Source of the DNA: a virus
Length of the DNA stretch: 25,695 nt
Reading direction: 5' to 3' (one strand)
Virus record (IMG/VR): IMGVR_UViG_3300047564_002276
Coordinates: 1 to 25,695 of that record
Numbering within the stretch: the stretch's first letter is position 1; each line of letters begins with the position of its first letter. Below are positions 5,701-24,906 of the stretch, in pieces. Position numbers and translations under genes: made by a program. The notes below the pieces were generated by a model that worked only from the letters and a program-made list of their open reading frames with translations, did not search any database and was not told the DNA's origin.

Positions 5701-6544
5701 AACGGTAAGCTGTACCGTTTTTTATTGGATTAAACAGACCGAATGTTGTGGCATTGGTGGGCTGATAGGTCTGACAAAACCCTGGACGATCAGGGCCGAA
5801 TAATGTTGGGCAGACAAAAATATCGTCCCCAGTCCACGGGTCGCCAGAAGATTGCGAGCCGCGTGATCCGTATAAAAAGTTGTTGGCTGTAATGCGGCCT
5901 GAAAGATTACCGTCGCTTGTTGTACCAGGGCGGTAGTAGAAAGCAAAACGGCTTGAATCTTGAAGCGCTAGGCCGTTGTTGCCGATGTAGATGCCAGCCA
6001 GCTCAGGGCGTTTGGCACCGGAACCAATGGTTTCACCGAGAATAAATACCAAGCGAACTGCTTGGTGACTGCCGTAGCTAAGCGTGCGTGACCACACCAG
6101 TTGGGGCTGGGTCATGATGCCGCCAGTCGCGCCAAATGACTGGACTTGATAATCACCAAACAGGATGGGGATCCGGGCGCCGTACTCCGCGATCTCCTGT
6201 ACGCCATCAAAGCCGTAGGTAGCGTTGAAGCGCTGTTGGCCACGTTGGCTGCCAAGGCGGCGCTGCTTGACTGGATCAGCCTGTTCGGGAGCACGTGGCT
6301 TGGGCGTCAGAAGGTAAGCGACGCCTTGAAATACGAGGCCAACAGCAAGACTAATAAGGACCGGAACAACAGGGCCGTTGTTGATTTCTGGAATAAGCGC
6401 GTATTCTGCCGGGCGTTCGCGGCTGCGCTTCAGCGCTTCTGCTGTAAAAAACCGGTATTCGTCTTCTGTGCAGCCTAAAAACTCAATCAGTTGGTACTCG
6501 AACGGAAGCAGGGGGATCCGCTGAAGTTGGAGATTGGTGTCCAC
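2729..6544 (-). CDS. Tip attachment / central fibre protein (lambda J-like)
   Basis: This is the largest gene (about 1271 residues), placed after the L- and K-like genes as J is in lambda. I prefer the GTG at 6544 (MDTNLQLQRIPLLPFEYQL) because GGGGAG lies nine bases upstream. An in-frame ATG at 6592, with GGAG four bases ahead, would add 16 residues, so the start is not certain. Near the N-terminus is one hydrophobic stretch (VVPVLISLAVGLVFQGVAYLL). The middle holds a Gly/Ser/Thr/Tyr-rich region that looks like an inserted beta domain. The C-terminal third, with LNLAPGNYIKVVTQ and a region around FRDTVSELAPYNLCSFVIRS, fits the hub-type fold of phage tip proteins. It probably forms the tail tip and helps recognise the host. 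The gene overlaps the NlpC/P60 gene by 58 bases with this start. Confidence 0.85.
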   Translation of the reverse strand: MDTNLQLQRIPLLPFEYQLIEFLGCTEDEYRFFTAEALKRSRERPAEYALIPEINNGPVVPVLISLAVGLVFQGVAYLLTPKPRAPEQADPVKQRRLGSQRGQQRFNATYGFDGVQEIAEYGARIPILFGDYQVQSFGATGGIMTQPQLVWSRTLSYGSHQAVRLVFILGETIGSGAKRPELAGIYIGNNGLALQDSSRFAFYYRPGTTSDGNLSGRITANNFLYGSRGSQSSGDPWTGDDIFVCPTLFGPDRPGFCQTYQPTNATTFGLFNPIKNGTAYRLNWRIISRPKESVDSGERIRAERKKIAGPKADGKDGGMPGVGAGYSPCMGLISFNGSTYTTPTEVTCNVGDFVTYQINTRKFTRGDLEIPASSGVNVDDINNATDSARQAADIALQVGELFQIGNCLFKVESRTNDIYRLNGPAIDINLRCIEIFGSQNTIGIAGTLAVQEKVFTSKGGGDDADPPPNNPADGFCGPSFWPLAQVAIGSIRNTRPVDTTEIGIKSQVWNKASGLCNFQNVPRAPKLLEFDNDNTNLTNGTIDKFMARASAFAVEFRPAEARSDGTPYSWYRIREEFVIVGSKPVDQYNFIRLKPERPGQYEYRLVPRPGALLSKYLADDATFVVMTGTQITANYANTFSSDSYGSIRVTCSGQSVLAKNYFSNSELIDGAQAAYTETASNIPTAVGWDGSYTGQSSSGSAGGAQGGYCYERLGNPATAYTQGYVSGSSSVNYNVKFTVQVAEGKTLALVIGGKAKLGSAEYVAKYGTSYQWDPDTISIALQGANDGDYKSTGEWSANEVVRDVITPTNGNVWASVNGLSQVGVNITITQVQSTTTTVPAEDARTFERVSQIADVSHYDELTKSHFDGPEHQISYINESIANVDDAGEEIAPQYDACTTMGLVIRSSKSVNRVDQLNVWMPKGVDCYNWLTGSTGPSNLFCDLVYYLLTNNRAGLGSVIDPDLIDNDGFSQTARFLKTNHIYFDGAIADARNFRDTVSELAPYNLCSFVIRSGKFTIVPALPYDANGNINPSNLPIAAMFSDGNIIEDSFEIDYLDADERRDFRAIVSYREGYKNAFPTTRTIAVRWNEAGSTAYPQETFDLSSFCTHKEHALKVARYMLSIRRHVRYVARFKTTPYGLNLAPGNYIKVVTQVNPYHSSRNGVIRASDGAVLSADLLADGTYSVSAYRPGSESVQTISITISGGRVTDPNNWGIVFTTSNTSLEQNVYMVEQLTLDEEGLVSIVASHVPTSNGASVVATDVITPNRFIYSE

Positions 6545-19741: not shown

Positions 19742-20251
19742 ATGGACCGGATAACAGTCGGTGAGCATGAGTATTACTGGGACGGGCGGTACTACGCGAG
19801 GCACAAAGGACTTGTTGCGCCACGAAGGCTTCATGTAGATGTGTGGGAAGCCCATAACGGCCCCGTCCCAGCTGGCCACCACGTGCATCACATCGACCAA
19901 AACCGGCGAAATAATGAAATCGACAACTTACAGCTTGTAGATGGAAAGGAGCACGTACGCGCGCACAGTTCCACGGAAAAAGCAAAAGAACATATGCGTA
20001 CTATTCAACAATTAGGTAAAGAGGCAGCAAAAGCTTGGCATAAATCGGAAGAGGGCAGTAAATGGCATAAAGAGCATTTTGACGCGCTTATGGCAAGCAA
20101 GGGCATCCTTCAGTGCACGGAGTGCTTCAGCGAGTTTAAGCCTACTAATTTTAGGCAAAAATTTTGCTGCAAACGGTGCAATAACAGGGCCAAAATGCGT
20201 GCGTGGCGTGCTAGACAAAAAGAGGTAAATGCTACCAAACTCTATAGTTAG
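19742..20251 (+). CDS. HNH homing endonuclease (free-standing)
   Basis: This 169-residue protein reads opposite to its neighbours and converges on the large terminase gene, whose last 20 bases it overlaps. Residues 30-75 carry the HNH core, HVDVWEAHNGPVPAGHHVHH and IDQNRRNNEIDNLQLVDGKE, with His46/47, His49/50 and Asn57/58 as likely active-site positions. A C-terminal zinc finger is suggested by CTEC (125-128) and CCKRC (142-146), followed by a basic helix (RAKMRAWRARQKE). This resembles phage homing endonucleases that cut near the terminase gene and spread into empty sites. The 3' part is clearly AT-rich, fitting acquired DNA. Confidence 0.88.
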   Translation: MDRITVGEHEYYWDGRYYARHKGLVAPRRLHVDVWEAHNGPVPAGHHVHHIDQNRRNNEIDNLQLVDGKEHVRAHSSTEKAKEHMRTIQQLGKEAAKAWHKSEEGSKWHKEHFDALMASKGILQCTECFSEFKPTNFRQKFCCKRCNNRAKMRAWRARQKEVNATKLYS

Positions 20252-21482
20252 TTTTTCCGATGTTTTCACCTTTTGCAAGGTTAAATACCTGCAAACACAT
20301 ATAGCCCAGAGCGTCAAAACTATGATCTACACCTAAATTTTTGTTGGGTAGTTGTGAATTGGGTGCGTATGTGAGTGTGCGTAGAGACTTAATTAACTCT
20401 TTGCATTTTGGATTTATAAATAACCGGCGGCGTCCAGACGCATCTAGCAGCGCTGTGTTGACAGCCGTGATTTTGTCACGAATGGCCCAGGGAGATCGGG
20501 GGCTGGAGACCGTAAAACCGGATTTGCGGAGGATGTTGTGGTCGGTTGCGCCAACGCCTGAGGTCTTCCTGGCGCCTCCTGTAGGGTCCGGGCAGGCGAT
20601 CACGCGGCGCTCTACGCCAAAGCGGTTCTGGACCTCCTCGCAGAGGTCCCAGGTGGTCGCTCCACCAGTCAGTACGATCTCGTCAAATACCCACAAGTCT
20701 TCGCCTTTTTTGACGGCGCAGACAGCCGTCATCGGACTCACATTGAAGTCCACTCCAAGCAAGAGGGGTAAAACGGGTAGATCTTGGACTTGTTTGTCGA
20801 TGTTGTCGTCGCCGAATGAGACTGCAACGAGACCGCTGAGATTCTCGAAGCTGGCCTCAAACTCTTGGCGGAAGGTGCGCGGGTCGAGTTGGGCGCGAGC
20901 AGCTTCGATTTCTTCCGGTGGGACGTTATCGCCGTCGATTGTTGTGAATTGCCAGCGGCTCCAGTCCTTGTCGCCGCTATCCGCGTATTGCCAGAGTTCG
21001 TAGAACCAACTGGCGGTGCCATCCGGGGTGGAGATGAATAATGCCCAGCCTTGTTTGTCGGCGAGGGCGGGGCGAATGACCTCGAACCAGACTTCCGCGT
21101 CCATAAACGCGGCTTCGTCGAGCACCACGCCAGCCAAACTGCGGCCTCGCAGGGCCATGGCGTTTTCAGTGCCCTTCAGTTCGATGGTTGAGCCGTTCAC
21201 CAGCTCGATCTTGAGGTCCGTTTCGTTCTTTGATTTGATCCAAGCTTTCGGGACAAGGCGTTTTAGGACTTTCCAGGCAATGTCTTTCGCCATCCGGTAT
21301 GTAGGGGCGGCATAGAAAAAGGTTTCGCCCGGCCTTTCGATCGCCCCACGCAATAACTCGATACATGACAGGTAACTTTTGCCGAATCGCCGGCCAGCTA
21401 CCAATACTCTGAAGCGTTTTCGACTGGAAAATACCTCACCTTGGGCGTAGCGAAGGGTGAGTGCTCCAGCAGAATCGGGCAT
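20232..21482 (-). CDS. terL: Terminase large subunit
   Basis: This 416-residue protein packages DNA with an ATPase and a nuclease domain. Walker A is AGRRFGKS at residues 29-36, Walker B is GVVLDEAAF with Asp122/Glu123, and the coupling motif is FISTPDG (149-155). The nuclease domain has acidic positions Asp245 (LLGVDFN), Asp299 (ACPDPTGG) and Asp390 (DHSFDALGY), typical of the RNase H fold. The ATG is not near a good ribosome-binding site (AGAAGG is 17 bases away). The 3' end (20232-20440) is AT-richer than the rest, matching the adjacent HNH gene. The likely small subunit lies upstream, separated by three tiny genes. Confidence 0.95.
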   Translation of the reverse strand: MPDSAGALTLRYAQGEVFSSRKRFRVLVAGRRFGKSYLSCIELLRGAIERPGETFFYAAPTYRMAKDIAWKVLKRLVPKAWIKSKNETDLKIELVNGSTIELKGTENAMALRGRSLAGVVLDEAAFMDAEVWFEVIRPALADKQGWALFISTPDGTASWFYELWQYADSGDKDWSRWQFTTIDGDNVPPEEIEAARAQLDPRTFRQEFEASFENLSGLVAVSFGDDNIDKQVQDLPVLPLLLGVDFNVSPMTAVCAVKKGEDLWVFDEIVLTGGATTWDLCEEVQNRFGVERRVIACPDPTGGARKTSGVGATDHNILRKSGFTVSSPRSPWAIRDKITAVNTALLDASGRRRLFINPKCKELIKSLRTLTYAPNSQLPNKNLGVDHSFDALGYMCLQVFNLAKGENIGKTNYRVW

Positions 21483-21485
21483 TTT

Positions 21486-21497
21486 TTGGGGTATGGG
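21486..21497 (-). promoter_or_regulatory. 12-base leader element CCCATACCCCAA before terL
   Basis: The sequence reads CCCATACCCCAA on the minus strand and lies about four bases before the terL ATG. The identical 12-mer precedes the chaperone G gene (11128-11139). Both genes then start ATGCCCG. This may be a leader or translation signal, or a coincidence. Confidence 0.3.
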
Positions 21498-21506
21498 TAC
21501 CTTCTA

Positions 21507-21535
21507 GGGTATTACAGGAATCGAACCCCTGCCCC
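21507..21535 (-). other. tRNA T-arm-like remnant
   Basis: On the minus strand the sequence is GCAGGGGTTCGATTCCTGT followed by AATACCCT. GGTTCGATTCC is the classic T-arm core, but two extra G bases break the five-base stem. Searching the 76 bases upstream I find no matching D-arm or anticodon arm. It could be a decayed tRNA end or a remnant of an attachment site, or chance. Confidence 0.25.
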
Positions 21536-21634
21536 GGTGTAGTACAGAAGAAGAAATTGAGGATATGTCAGTAGGTTCCCTGGGTGCCGCCCAGCCCCAG
21601 GCAGCGCCGAACCCTACCCCCTAGTGCAGTTGTA

Positions 21635-21826
21635 CTAGGCCGCCAGCAGGCGTCGCACTGTGGTGCGACTGCAGCCGAGGCGGTCGGCGATCGCCTGCTG
21701 TGTCAGGCCAGCACGGCGCCAGCGCCTGGCACGCTGCTGGCGGGACTCACTAGCCCAGAGCAGGATCAGCAGGGGGAGCAGGATCAGCGCCAGCAGGATT
21801 GCGGCGGCAGTAGTGGCGGTTGCCAT
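21635..21826 (-). CDS. Small membrane-anchored helix-turn-helix protein
   Basis: This 63-residue protein has a strongly hydrophobic N-terminal helix (residues 5-24, AAAILLALILLPLLILLW) followed by a basic linker (SRQQRARRWRR). A clear HTH of the resolvase/Hin-like kind follows in residues 38-62: GLTQQAIADRLGCSRTTVRR. Basic residues after the helix favour the C-terminus facing the cytoplasm (positive-inside rule). A tiny one-pass protein with a DNA-binding tail is unusual in a terminase region. No family comes to mind. It lies between the terL leader and the next small gene. Confidence 0.65.
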   Translation of the reverse strand: MATATTAAAILLALILLPLLILLWASESRQQRARRWRRAGLTQQAIADRLGCSRTTVRRLLAA

Positions 21827-21857
21827 GGTGAGGCTACGTGGTGAGGTAGGGATGCAG

Positions 21858-22016
21858 TCAGGCTGCGCGGGAAGCGAGGGTCTGTAGAGCCAATTCGGCG
21901 AGGGTCAGCTCGCGGTAGCGAGGCATTTCCCAGTGGCTCCAATGGCCCTGGAGTCCTTCGGTGTTGCGGCGCTGGCGAGCGCAGCGAGCGATGTTTAGCC
22001 AGTCGGCGCGGGTCAT
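21858..22016 (-). CDS. Small unknown protein
   Basis: This 52-residue product from the ATG at 22016 reads MTRADWLNIARCARQRRNTE and continues HWEMPRYRELTLAELALQTL. It is helical and basic. The longer frame (start near 22220) would run through a region already used by another small gene, so I take the short version. No family recognised. Confidence 0.45.
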   Translation of the reverse strand: MTRADWLNIARCARQRRNTEGLQGHWSHWEMPRYRELTLAELALQTLASRAA

Positions 22017-22119
22017 GGTGTTCGGTGGGTGTCCGTTACTGTGTGAGTCTAGTCGATTGGTGAGCCGATTGCGAGCGATCCGGACGGATCTGTACCGGAT
22101 CGCCGATTGGCACAAGCCG

Positions 22120-22266
22120 CTAGCGACCAAGCACCAACAGCCGGCACTCGGCGGCGGAGCGACCGGCAGACTCGCAGCGCGCCAGCTGGTTTGCATTGTC
22201 GGCGCCCATAGCGAGCACACCGCAGGCGGTGAGCAGAGCGGCCAAGGTCAGGAAGCGGTTGGTCAT
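22120..22266 (-). CDS. Small exported protein or lipoprotein with two cysteines
   Basis: This 48-residue product starts at an internal ATG (MTNRFLTLAALLTACGVLAM). The N-terminus is a clear signal sequence, and LTAC could be a lipobox. The mature part has a C-x(10)-C pattern, ARCESAGRSAAECRLLVLGR. Small exported proteins of this kind occur in phages, sometimes as lysis (spanin-like) proteins, but nothing beyond the signal supports that here. The longer start at 22341 (adding 25 residues) would hide the signal sequence. Confidence 0.5.
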   Translation of the reverse strand: MTNRFLTLAALLTACGVLAMGADNANQLARCESAGRSAAECRLLVLGR

Positions 22267-22318
22267 TGGGAAGCGTGGTGGGCTTGCCTCCCATTGTTGC
22301 ACACTATCGGCGGTTTGC

Positions 22319-22774
22319 CTAGCCCTGGCGCTTGTCTTCAACGGTGATATTCAGCGTGGGTGCAGCGGCTGCCTGTTGCTCTGGCGCAGCCTCTCCAATC
22401 ACTGCGCCCATATCCTTCAGCAGCATCGCCACAGTCTGCAGCTGGCCCTTCCTGAGAGCTTTCTGAACCGTAGCTAGGCGCAAAGCCTGTATTTGGTTAA
22501 GTAGATTCTCACGAGTCTCGATTTGCTCCGTTTTAAGAATCTGCATCGCAGCTGAATAATCCCTTCCAGCTGTAACCTCAGATACTCCAAAGCGATCCAT
22601 CACCTTCTGCAGTACCTGGCGACGGGTTCCGCCCTCCAGCATCGCTGCATAGGCGAAGTTCATCCGTTCATCCATCCGCACCGATGAACCCTTACCGCCA
22701 CGCCACCGTTTAGTGGGATCGTTCGCCACCGTGAGCGGTTCATTCTTTACATCTTGTGCCTCAGAATCGGCCAC
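22319..22774 (-). CDS. Probable terminase small subunit
   Basis: This 151-residue protein with a GTG start lies on the same strand upstream of terL. Residues 48-74 (GGTRRQVLQKVMDRFGVSEV, then TAGRDY) fit a helix-turn-helix for recognition of packaging sites. A helical region with SAAMQILKTEQIETRENLLN follows, as expected for an oligomerising small terminase, and the tail APTLNITVEDKRQG resembles the short C-terminal tails of TerS proteins. Three tiny genes separate it from terL, which is unusual but not exceptional. Confidence 0.7.
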   Translation of the reverse strand: MADSEAQDVKNEPLTVANDPTKRWRGGKGSSVRMDERMNFAYAAMLEGGTRRQVLQKVMDRFGVSEVTAGRDYSAAMQILKTEQIETRENLLNQIQALRLATVQKALRKGQLQTVAMLLKDMGAVIGEAAPEQQAAAAPTLNITVEDKRQG

Positions 22775-22821
22775 GATAGGATCACAAACCCATTGGCCCC
22801 ATGCTAACCTCTAACGCCAAC

Positions 22822-22845
22822 AAAAAAGCACCGCTGAAGCGGTGC
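22822..22845 (-). terminator. Intrinsic terminator upstream of the small terminase gene
   Basis: On the minus strand GCACCGC with GCGGTGC forms a seven-base-pair stem around TTCA and is followed by TTTTTT. It stops the transcript of the early small genes (23102-22869) before the terminase gene. Confidence 0.85.
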
Positions 22846-22847
22846 GG

Positions 22848-22873
22848 ACTGAGCGAAGCGAAGGCCGCTCAGT
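22848..22873 (-). repeat. Second hairpin next to the terminator
   Basis: ACTGAGCG and CGCTCAGT form an eight-base-pair inverted repeat with a ten-base spacer, covering the stop codon of the 22869-23102 gene. It stacks ahead of the terminator hairpin and may protect the transcript end. Confidence 0.6.
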
Positions 22874-23102
22874 AGGACGGCAAGACAAAAGCAACGGTAC
22901 AACTGCCAACGGGCCTCAACTCGAAACCCTCGCCATAATCGAACCGCCGGCACCGCTGGCCAGTTAGCCCAAGGGCAGCCTTAGCGGCGGTGATGATTCG
23001 CCGGTCAGACGCGCTGGAGGGTAGCTCAAAGCTCTCACGGCGCACCCAGCTGTAATTTGCCTCGCCGCCGAACGTATCGGTCAGTTCTACATTCCAAAGC
23101 AT
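22869..23102 (-). CDS. Small unknown early-region protein
   Basis: This 77-residue protein (MLWNVELTDTFGGEANYSWV, then RRESFELPSSASDRRIITAA) has a very good AGGAGG eight bases before the ATG, formed by the last codons and stop region of the preceding gene. Such coupling is good evidence that both are real. It resembles the many small proteins between replication and terminase genes in phages. No family recognised. Confidence 0.75.
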   Translation of the reverse strand: MLWNVELTDTFGGEANYSWVRRESFELPSSASDRRIITAAKAALGLTGQRCRRFDYGEGFELRPVGSCTVAFVLPSY

Positions 23103-23105
23103 CGC

Positions 23106-23306
23106 TCAAACCTCCTCGAATTCGGCTTTGTCGCTGAGCAGACCGGGATCGTGCGCAGCATTCCAAGCGCGGCAAGCCTCGCGGGCCTCCTCCTCGCTCC
23201 AAACGTAGGCAATGTGGTGACGGGGACCCACGCCAGGTTCGCGGCCATCAGGCCAGCTGGGGTTTGCACGCCACCAAGTGCGGTGAAAAACTCGAAACTT
23301 AGTCAT
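23106..23306 (-). CDS. Small unknown protein with box leader
   Basis: This 66-residue protein (MTKFRVFHRTWWRANPSWPD and WSEEEAREACRAWNAAHDPG) starts at an ATG three bases after the leader box AAGGCTCAC. Its last codons (GAG GAG GTT TGA) supply the ribosome-binding site of the next gene. Aromatic residues and the SEEEAREACRAWN helix suggest a small globular fold. The function is unknown. Confidence 0.72.
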   Translation of the reverse strand: MTKFRVFHRTWWRANPSWPDGREPGVGPRHHIAYVWSEEEAREACRAWNAAHDPGLLSDKAEFEEV

Positions 23307-23309
23307 GGT

Positions 23310-23318
23310 GTGAGCCTT
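23310..23318 (-). promoter_or_regulatory. Leader box AAGGCTCAC, copy 1
   Basis: The minus strand reads CTAAGGCTCACACCATG, three bases before the start codon. The AAGG part can act as a ribosome-binding site. The same nonamer precedes two neighbouring genes. Confidence 0.5.
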
Positions 23319-23366
23319 AGGGTGAGGGGTCTCGTGTGTGAGTGTAGAACCGGATCCGGCCCGGCG

Positions 23367-23810
23367 TCAAGCCAAGGCCGCCAGGATGCCTGATTGTTCA
23401 GCCCGAATCGCGCAATCAGCCCGGCTGGCCCAATGGTTCTCAACAATCAGCGGATCCTGCCCAATAGTGTGGGGCGCCATCTCCGCTAAATAAGCCTCGC
23501 GGGTTGGGTACTGCCGATAAAAGGCAGCGCAGCGCAGTATCTCACGGGCAGCGGTTCCAGCGTCAATAGGTGCTATGTCGTGGATGGTGCTAGTGATGGT
23601 GGCGTAAGCAGCCTGAAAACTACCGATAGCCTCACGACCTAGCGGTTCAGGCGCCAGCCATACAGTCTCCGTCTTGACGTAGTTTCCGTAGCCGTCCCGG
23701 CAAGGAACGCCGATAGGATGCGCGGCATGATGCTGGCCGATAACGCGCCAGCCGTTACGTTCCAGTCTCCAGCGGGCTGCATCGTGAGAGGGAAGGGAAG
23801 CGGTTTGCAT
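23367..23810 (-). CDS. Unknown early-region protein
   Basis: This 147-residue protein starts one base after the leader box AAGGCTCAC (MQTASLPSHDAARWRLERNG). It contains FQAAYATITSTIHDIAPIDA and CAAFYRQYPTREAYLAEMAP. It looks helical and soluble. A second, related-looking small protein lies upstream. I do not recognise a family, and no motif of an enzyme is visible. Confidence 0.65.
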   Translation of the reverse strand: MQTASLPSHDAARWRLERNGWRVIGQHHAAHPIGVPCRDGYGNYVKTETVWLAPEPLGREAIGSFQAAYATITSTIHDIAPIDAGTAAREILRCAAFYRQYPTREAYLAEMAPHTIGQDPLIVENHWASRADCAIRAEQSGILAALA

Positions 23811-24193: not shown

Positions 24194-24592
24194 ATGTTCA
24201 CCAGTCAACGAGACCGTAAAGACGCCAGGGAAGCTGAGCGCGAACAGCTGCGACTTGAGAAGCGCCACCTACGCGACCTGCGATGGGCGGTAGAACGTTC
24301 CAGCATCGAGGCTTCGGATTGGGCGGATTTGCTGGCGCTCCAATCCGCCCACGGTAAAGAGGGTCCCTTGCAACTCTGGCGCGAGCTTGTGCCGTACTGG
24401 CGGAACTGCCAGCGCCTTAATGGTGGCGCCGACATCCCTGCAGAACTTTTTCCACAAGCTACGGGTATTTTTTCGCGCACATCGGAACCACCTAAGGCCC
24501 CAGTCACCAGGACTAAGGCAACACCGGGAGCCCCACGCAAGACGCGTAGCGATGCGGGCAAGCGCCAACCCTCTCGCAAGGGAGCAGCATGA
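24194..24592 (+). CDS. Unknown basic protein, first gene of plus-strand pair
   Basis: This 132-residue protein has a charged helical N-terminus (MFTSQRDRKDAREAEREQLR), a middle with WRELVPYWRNCQRLNGGADI and a Pro/Arg/Lys-rich disordered tail ending PSRKGAA. Its stop overlaps the next ATG by four bases (ATGA), so it is co-translated with the RlpA-like protein. No signal or membrane segment is visible. Function unknown; the pairing suggests a lysis or envelope role but does not show it. Confidence 0.65.
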   Translation: MFTSQRDRKDAREAEREQLRLEKRHLRDLRWAVERSSIEASDWADLLALQSAHGKEGPLQLWRELVPYWRNCQRLNGGADIPAELFPQATGIFSRTSEPPKAPVTRTKATPGAPRKTRSDAGKRQPSRKGAA

Positions 24593-24906
24593 AGCGGCTT
24601 ACCCTTTTGTGGTTGCTGGCGGCCATCCATGCGCCAGCTGATGCCAGGCAAGTTACGGCAACCGTCTACCACCCTTGGTATGACGGACGCCAAACAGCTT
24701 GTGGGCAGATGTACCAACACTGGGGAATCAGCGCGGCGCATCCCTTTCTGCCGTGCGGGACTCGCCTACGGATCCAACACCAGGGGAGAGTACTGACCGT
24801 GCCAATCACCGATAGGTGTGAGTGCGGATCCGTTGATCTTTCTGCCGGGGCTGCCTACAGGTTGGGAGTTCCAATCAACGGAACCGCTACCGTCACGATC
24901 CACTAG
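24589..24906 (+). CDS. Exported RlpA-like double-psi beta-barrel protein
   Basis: This 105-residue protein begins with a signal peptide (MKRLTLLWLLAAIHAPADAR). The mature part is a small double-psi beta-barrel: YHPWYDGRQTACGQ, then PFLPCGTRLRIQHQGRVL and VPITDRCECGSVDLSAGAAY. The order (S/T)ACG, PxGTxLR(I/V), (V)x(I/V)xDRC and D(L/V)S is typical of the RlpA/expansin-like family, with Asp75 in the usual acid position. RlpA of Pseudomonas is a lytic transglycosylase that cuts glycan strands. A phage protein of this type could act in cell-wall degradation, but the SPOR domain is absent and activity is not proven. Confidence 0.8.
   Translation: MKRLTLLWLLAAIHAPADARQVTATVYHPWYDGRQTACGQMYQHWGISAAHPFLPCGTRLRIQHQGRVLTVPITDRCECGSVDLSAGAAYRLGVPINGTATVTIH

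Follow-up and report, generated by a model that had tools for sequence, protein, structure and literature searches.

The window analysed here, the whole 25,695-nt stretch of the virus record IMGVR_UViG_3300047564_002276, carries a short gene at 21635-21826 on its minus strand, which starts with ATG, stops with TAG and encodes 63 amino acids, as an earlier note made from the sequence had described. The product of this ORF (21826-21635), MATATTAAAILLALILLPLLILLWASESRQQRARRWRRAGLTQQAIADRLGCSRTTVRRLLAA, is referred to as TM-HTH. Its downstream neighbour is the gene of the terminase large subunit (TerL; 20232-21482, minus strand). On the other side, on the same strand, lie a 52-aa small ORF (21858-22016), which did not group into any cluster with at least three members in the loci retrieved, a 48-aa hydrophobic small ORF (22120-22266), which belongs to cluster c7 and is a frequent neighbour in this slot, and a putative small terminase (TerS; 22319-22774), so called from its position and sequence character only and with no profile match of note. 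Two ORFs run on the plus strand: an HNH endonuclease ORF (19742-20251) that overlaps the end of TerL by 20 bases, and a small RlpA/DPBB-like protein (24589-24906; PF03330, E 4.9e-17) with a signal-like N-terminus, which runs against the main gene direction and may have a lysis or cell-wall role.

Two further features lie between TM-HTH and TerL, both read on the minus strand. A 16-bp near-palindrome, TAGTACAACTGCACTA, present in one copy at 21622-21637 and about 156 nt before TerL, is a candidate DNA site, and its first three bases are the TM-HTH stop codon. It is followed by a strongly conserved non-coding TerL leader of about 100 nt (21483-21583; CCAGGGAACCTACTGAC...GGGGCAGGGGTTCGATTCCTGTAATACCC), which is found in the same place in many TerL loci, with and without an HTH gene, and part of which resembles a tRNA T-arm. 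The leader may serve as a packaging site, contain a promoter or function as a regulatory RNA; no Rfam family matched window positions 20000-23500, leader included, at E up to 1.

The predicted layout of TM-HTH has two parts. Codons 5-24 (21755-21814, minus strand) form a predicted membrane helix with a nearly invariant proline, P18, inside it; after a two-residue break comes the basic helix 1 of a helix-turn-helix (HTH) domain (RQQRARRWRRA, codons 29-39, 21710-21742, minus strand), and the turn, second helix and recognition helix occupy codons 40-60 (GLTQQAIADRLGCSRTTVRRL; 21647-21709, minus strand). The Kyte-Doolittle maximum over 19-residue windows (KD19) is 2.85, at residues 7-25, and the HTH passes the Pfam cut-offs of both HTH_23 (28.1 bits against 24.6) and HTH_7 (27.8 against 23.8). 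An AlphaFold2 model from a 58-row alignment (mean pLDDT 86.8) places helices at 2-26, 29-39, 43-50 and 54-62, that is, a hydrophobic helix, a two-residue break and a complete three-helix HTH. The single hydrophobic helix and the HTH named in the earlier note thus both held up, and they are conserved as a unit. Its view that the layout is unusual also found support: at cut-off, no Pfam or NCBIfam model spans both halves, PHROG matches at E 0.01 or better cover the HTH half only, and weak matches across both halves, such as BatA (PF07584, 16.3 against 25.9 bits), fall far under their cut-offs. Members of the family, as defined here, have an N-terminal hydrophobic helix that leads directly into a tri-helical HTH at the C-terminus, and they carry E27 and a RARRW-type basic motif; the window protein has all of these.

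Relatives are numerous. A tblastn search of IMG/VR with the window protein gave at least 217 (80 kept), and a profile scan gave 315 (80 kept). The earlier note had proposed a search for homologues with the same two-part layout, and had named homologues without the helix, or a start downstream of it, as evidence against its reading. Among the 80 kept relatives of the first scan, 78 have an upstream start, ATG in all except L006 and L011, and a hydrophobic stretch with KD19 of at least 2.29. Only two deviate, and both seem to be decayed or frameshifted: in L057 the HTH frame lacks a start codon and no helix was seen within 120 nt upstream of it, and in L062 the hydrophobic half sits in a different frame from the HTH. 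In the window, the sole in-frame start-like codon downstream of the ATG is a GTG at codon 57, so that any helix-free HTH product would be limited to a few residues. Of 62 distinct family members, 48 carry an ATG, GTG or TTG somewhere from codon 10 to codon 42, the GTG and TTG codons mostly inside the helix. An ATG occurs there in 11 members, and in 9 of these it lies at codons 34-41, within the HTH domain, so that a start at that point would lose HTH helix 1 wholly or partly.

A gene this short, with forward-strand ORFs overlapping it and a Shine-Dalgarno-like sequence in just 4 of 62 members, might be a decaying or chance ORF. This is extremely improbable, since the frame is kept across a wide family and changes concentrate at third codon positions. 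In 32 ungapped members of 63 codons, differences at positions 1, 2 and 3 number 7516, 5178 and 14115, a pattern that already refutes a chance ORF. These 32 come from 63 sequences, the other 31 being excluded as not exactly 63 codons long with P18 and E27 in register. In the same members pN/pS is 0.50 for the membrane helix, 0.25 for HTH helix 1 and 0.34 for the remaining HTH, with residues 2-8 barely constrained (0.89); between the window and L002 it is 0.12. Ten residues are invariant in 58 aligned rows (A9, P18, E27, R35, G40, L50, G51, S53, T56 and R59). Among 95 members checked, E27, at the end of the helix, is present in all and P18, within it, in 93, the exceptions being the copy in cyanophage S-2L and L190. 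Judged from these substitution patterns, TM-HTH is a real gene under purifying selection.

TM-HTH is found in at least five genome settings, labelled from gene clusters shared within five genes and a few profile checks. After removal of near-identical stretches (150 rows to 93), the 93 distinct full-length copies include 39 before a TerL of the window's kind (the terminase group). Of the others, 18 have an integrase/lysozyme setting, 16 are near helicase or replication genes and 6 near VRR-NUC/RecT genes; 4 share one further setting, and the last 10 lie in other places. On the protein tree, which has few columns and many unresolved forks, the setting changes 22 times, against 48.8 in shuffles. 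The gene is thus not tied to one neighbour and, as far as these sequences tell, is mobile between genome settings. The adjacency to terminase genes in the earlier note therefore holds for the window and fails family-wide, with many TerL relatives lacking TM-HTH; packaging was rejected as a role across the family, as only 39 of 93 distinct copies adjoin this TerL, and a special tie to it was not supported in the form suggested. Its lysis reading is too narrow for the family, as lysozyme adjacency is confined to one subgroup, where the lysozyme (PF00959 in L162) lies tail-to-tail with TM-HTH. By eye, 13 of the 18 distinct integrase/lysozyme copies carry a near-constant inverted repeat before the start codon, CCCGGCACTGGCCGGT, with small variants (L023, L027, L033, L034, L036, L037, L041, L050, L063, L075, L076, L161 and L184, and also L206). 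This 16-mer begins 22-23 nt before the TM-HTH match and is a possible hairpin or operator.

The gap between TerS and TerL (21483-22318 in the window) is, in the window and its relatives, a hypervariable slot for tiny proteins. Besides TM-HTH, it can hold a longer HTH protein, proteins of 50-55 aa that are hydrophobic in a C-terminal stretch, 69-aa proteins that contain Cys and begin with a signal-like sequence, and others. In 79 loci newly fetched with TerL, some of which end before the slot, TM-HTH is whole in 12 and cut at a contig end in one, and the longer protein is present in 9; in 17 TerL loci that we inspected, other tiny ORFs, many of them hydrophobic, fill the slot. Where a 50-55-aa protein replaces TM-HTH, a GC-rich terminator-like hairpin followed by T's was seen by eye near the expected place of the 16-bp site (L082, 4848-5000; likewise L084, L085, L092, L095 and L100), and L085 has both hairpin and site.

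The longer HTH protein occupies the slot in 22 loci (9 from the TerL scan and 13 from a scan with the leader). It measures 116-128 aa in 18 aligned rows, an alignment (A2) that excludes L264, L269, L299 and L282, as well as L261, whose protein is identical. In the model (mean pLDDT 77.4, pTM 0.33), a long helix covers residues 6-55 and is joined by a weakly ordered linker to a C-terminal HTH similar to that of TM-HTH. The hydrophobic stretch of the longer protein is moderate to borderline, with KD19 maxima of 1.36-2.31; 5 of 21 distinct proteins fall under the customary 1.6, and in L265 the maximum falls in the linker. Conserved residues include A21 and P22 at the start of the stretch and T34, Y35 and G38 at its end. 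L282 represents a further form, whose hydrophobic part is different and whose sequence, as far as read, contains no ATG. On these predicted architectures, a longer HTH protein with another N-terminal part can replace TM-HTH in the terminase slot. That similar HTHs are found on different hydrophobic parts suggests that the pairing of the two is under selection.

In the terminase group, the 16-bp site follows the consensus TAGTAC-N4-GHACYA, called at 11 of 12 matches, and lies at or just past the TM-HTH stop in most copies. With six-base arms and a four-base spacer, the distance between the centres of the half-sites is ten bases, a spacing common to many HTH dimers. The site occurs anywhere in the TerS-TerL gap in 39 of 41 gaps with TM-HTH, 8 of 8 with the longer protein and 14 of 39 without an HTH gene. 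When the count is limited to the intergenic position ahead of the TerL leader, the figures are 31/41, 6/8 and 4/39, or 37 of 49 HTH gaps pooled against 4 of 39. The intergenic count is the fairer one, because the sites that longer-protein gaps have at about -385 and -530 fall within the coding sequence of that protein. A caveat to these comparisons is that gaps lacking an HTH gene are shorter, with a median of 644 nt against 821 nt. We also compared 39 pairs matched by TerL, at 99% down to 79% DNA identity (2 of 88 gaps were excluded for too short a TerL match). With the site counted anywhere, it was on the HTH side only in 25 pairs, on the other side only in 1 and on both in 13; for the intergenic site the numbers were 29, 2 and 2, with neither in 6. 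In the two contrary intergenic pairs, L113/L110 (99% TerL identity) and L112/L105 (95%), only the locus without an HTH gene has the site; the partners are close relatives, and the HTH side carries the longer protein.

Motif and threshold were picked after inspection of this first set of gaps. New contigs were obtained through the TerL leader and gave 51 gaps after removal of 4 that were too short, 35 known from before and 12 duplicates. In this set, which counts gaps regardless of kinship, the site occurs anywhere in 10 of 11 gaps with TM-HTH and 12 of 13 with the longer protein (22/24 in total), against 6 of 27 others, and at the intergenic position in 19 of 24 against 4 of 27 (hand count, Fisher test). 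The 16-bp site is statistically linked to HTH genes in the terminase group. In most copies it lies within about 40 nt of the TM-HTH gene, a closeness such that joint inheritance as a cassette (hitch-hiking) could explain the linkage. Around copies from the other settings (51 distinct loci, sites called at 10 of 12 matches), the site is not enriched (0.157 against 0.179 per kb), and inverted repeats there are hardly so (9.3 against 7.7 per kb). This absence speaks against the site as target, since the recognition helix is shared: LGCSRTTVRRLL is that of 18 of the 39 terminase copies and of 10 of the 18 integrase/lysozyme ones. We regard the site as a candidate target of TM-HTH.

Wherever a host is known, it is cyanobacterial, and we infer a cyanobacterial host for the window virus from the hosts of its relatives. 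Two cultured phages, S-CBS3 and S-2L, carry TM-HTH. They were found with tblastn against INPHARED using two more divergent members; the window protein itself gave no match there, BLAST low-complexity masking being the probable cause. In Synechococcus phage S-CBS3 the member is gp41 (ADF42499.1, 'hypothetical protein'), 63 aa long with the same two-part layout and a recognition region of the HTTARR type. It lies in an early-type region without an adjoining terminase, with a DNA methylase on one side and a RepA-type helicase on the other, the latter divergent from gp41 and separated from it by three hypothetical genes. The BFVD entry F4YCV4, likewise of 63 aa and with 62% identity and a TM-score of 0.88 to the window protein, is presumably this same protein. 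Cyanophage S-2L (MW334946) has an unannotated ORF (L226, 5932-6183) of 83 aa from its first ATG, or of 60 aa, which fits the family, from an inner one (6001-6183); it lies between tail genes on the opposite strand to them and has no helix proline.

A pattern scan of 84,980 species genomes gave just four loci, and true relatives only in a Cyanobium MAG, with an integrase and a phage lysozyme alongside, and a Synechococcaceae MAG; a widespread cellular family, considered as a possibility, was rejected on this count of four loci, two of them in picocyanobacterial MAGs. Two Acidobacteria loci (L163, L164) were dropped as 21-residue matches inside a sigma-like protein, and membership of a defence system was discarded, the PADLOC match of the window protein being a 22-residue HTH stretch only.

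Hydropathy and charge suggest how the protein would sit in the cell. The first ten residues hold no lysine or arginine in 61 of 62 distinct members, and 8-11 such residues follow residue 24 in all 62. By the positive-inside rule, this distribution would place the HTH in the cytoplasm. The single N-terminal helix would thus span the membrane with its uncharged N-terminus outside, and the basic C-terminal HTH would lie right at the membrane surface, because the membrane helix passes into HTH helix 1 almost unbroken. The HTH itself points to DNA binding, and the protein would likely act as a dimer on viral DNA. By keeping its DNA site at the membrane it may influence the neighbouring module, which in the terminase group would mean an effect on transcription or packaging at the TerL leader.

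The link between membrane and DNA that the earlier note had thought conceivable is, on this sequence pattern, the most natural reading. TM-HTH probably keeps viral DNA at the cell membrane or exerts control over it from that position. Our preferred explanation, in which we place slightly less than even confidence, is that TM-HTH is a minimal membrane-held putative DNA-binding protein acting on viral DNA at the membrane. Rather unlikely is an extended form, a portable cyanophage module in which a membrane-anchored HTH protein, with its own 16-bp site in the terminase lineage, pins the packaging region to the membrane. If this module were true, the fitting of different hydrophobic parts to similar HTHs in one slot would make membrane attachment itself the selected property.

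Other explanations share parts of this evidence. TM-HTH could be a membrane-held transcription regulator that a host protease cuts near P18, the freed HTH then repressing or activating. Helix-weakening residues favour intramembrane proteases, and a mid-helix proline in 93 of 95 members is in keeping with this idea, as are the operator-like place of the 16-bp site about 156 nt before TerL and the position of many integrase/lysozyme-group copies after an integrase. We consider it unlikely, however: the S-2L member and L190 lack the proline, the AlphaFold2 helix is unbroken across P18, the conserved residues of the longer protein include no mid-helix proline, and 63 residues leave no sensor part outside the membrane. 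The HTH might instead bind a protein (terminase, a nucleoid protein or a host regulator), making TM-HTH a membrane exclusion or host-takeover factor. The HTH of RodZ binds a partner protein, and TM-HTH matches this segment weakly (E 0.013; 15.2 bits over 29 residues, where the NCBIfam RodZ model NF008109 has a cut-off of 208 bits). Substitution by non-HTH tiny hydrophobic or secreted proteins in a hypervariable slot is likewise the behaviour of an accessory gene. This is quite unlikely given that residues expected in a DNA-reading helix (S-TT-RR) are among the most conserved and that HTH genes with unlike N-terminal parts are linked to one DNA site.

A small hydrophobic lysis or toxin protein whose basic HTH-like tail merely sets topology would account for the size, the one helix and the integrase/lysozyme setting of 18 of 93 distinct copies. 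It would not be expected to have an HTH half under tighter constraint than its membrane half (pN/pS 0.25-0.34 against 0.50), nor to recur in helicase, RecT and tail settings unrelated to lysis, and we consider it improbable.

If TM-HTH does bind DNA from the membrane, it is about the smallest natural protein known to us with the potential to link viral DNA to a membrane. Many viruses of small cyanobacteria carry it, although they otherwise differ from one another. If the preferred explanation is true, the site at which phage DNA is copied and packaged in cyanobacteria becomes testable through a single gene, coding for about 60 residues and present in the cultured phages S-CBS3 and S-2L. Searches of titles and abstract openings in the open-licence literature brought up no paper on a protein of this kind.

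Several known systems bear comparison. In ToxR and CadC, a cytoplasmic N-terminal HTH is followed by a membrane helix and a large outer sensor domain. These one-component regulators resemble TM-HTH in having a DNA-binding domain tied to the membrane within one chain, but in TM-HTH the order is reversed, nothing of note precedes the helix and there is no outer sensor domain. The C-terminal half is above both cut-offs for resolvase-type and homeodomain-like HTHs (HTH_7, HTH_23); unlike the proteins that carry these, TM-HTH has no catalytic or other domain and its HTH is fused to a membrane helix. A PDB profile search likewise gave matches to many regulators over stretches of HTH size.

The closest functional parallel is p16.7 of phage phi29, a protein of about 130 aa with an N-terminal membrane segment, a small helical C-terminal DNA-binding domain and a coiled coil between the two. 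A corresponding membrane segment is predicted in TM-HTH (KD19 2.85, helix 2-26), whereas the coiled coil has no counterpart, as the model helix 2-26 runs directly to HTH helix 29-39. In a PDB fold search, p16.7 was not among the best 50 of 912 matches, and none of the matches listed reached E 0.001. Like TM-HTH, p16.7 is phage-coded; one account describes it as an integral membrane protein with terminal protein and DNA as partners, its contact with terminal protein being proposed to assist in bringing displaced strands of the phage genome to the membrane, a role in the membrane anchoring of phage DNA (PMC4974454). The 63-aa TM-HTH has no linker, and its phages and hosts are unrelated to those of phi29. 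We therefore do not class it as a relative of p16.7, the coiled coil being absent; the proposed likeness is functional, in that TM-HTH would most likely work in a manner like that of p16.7.
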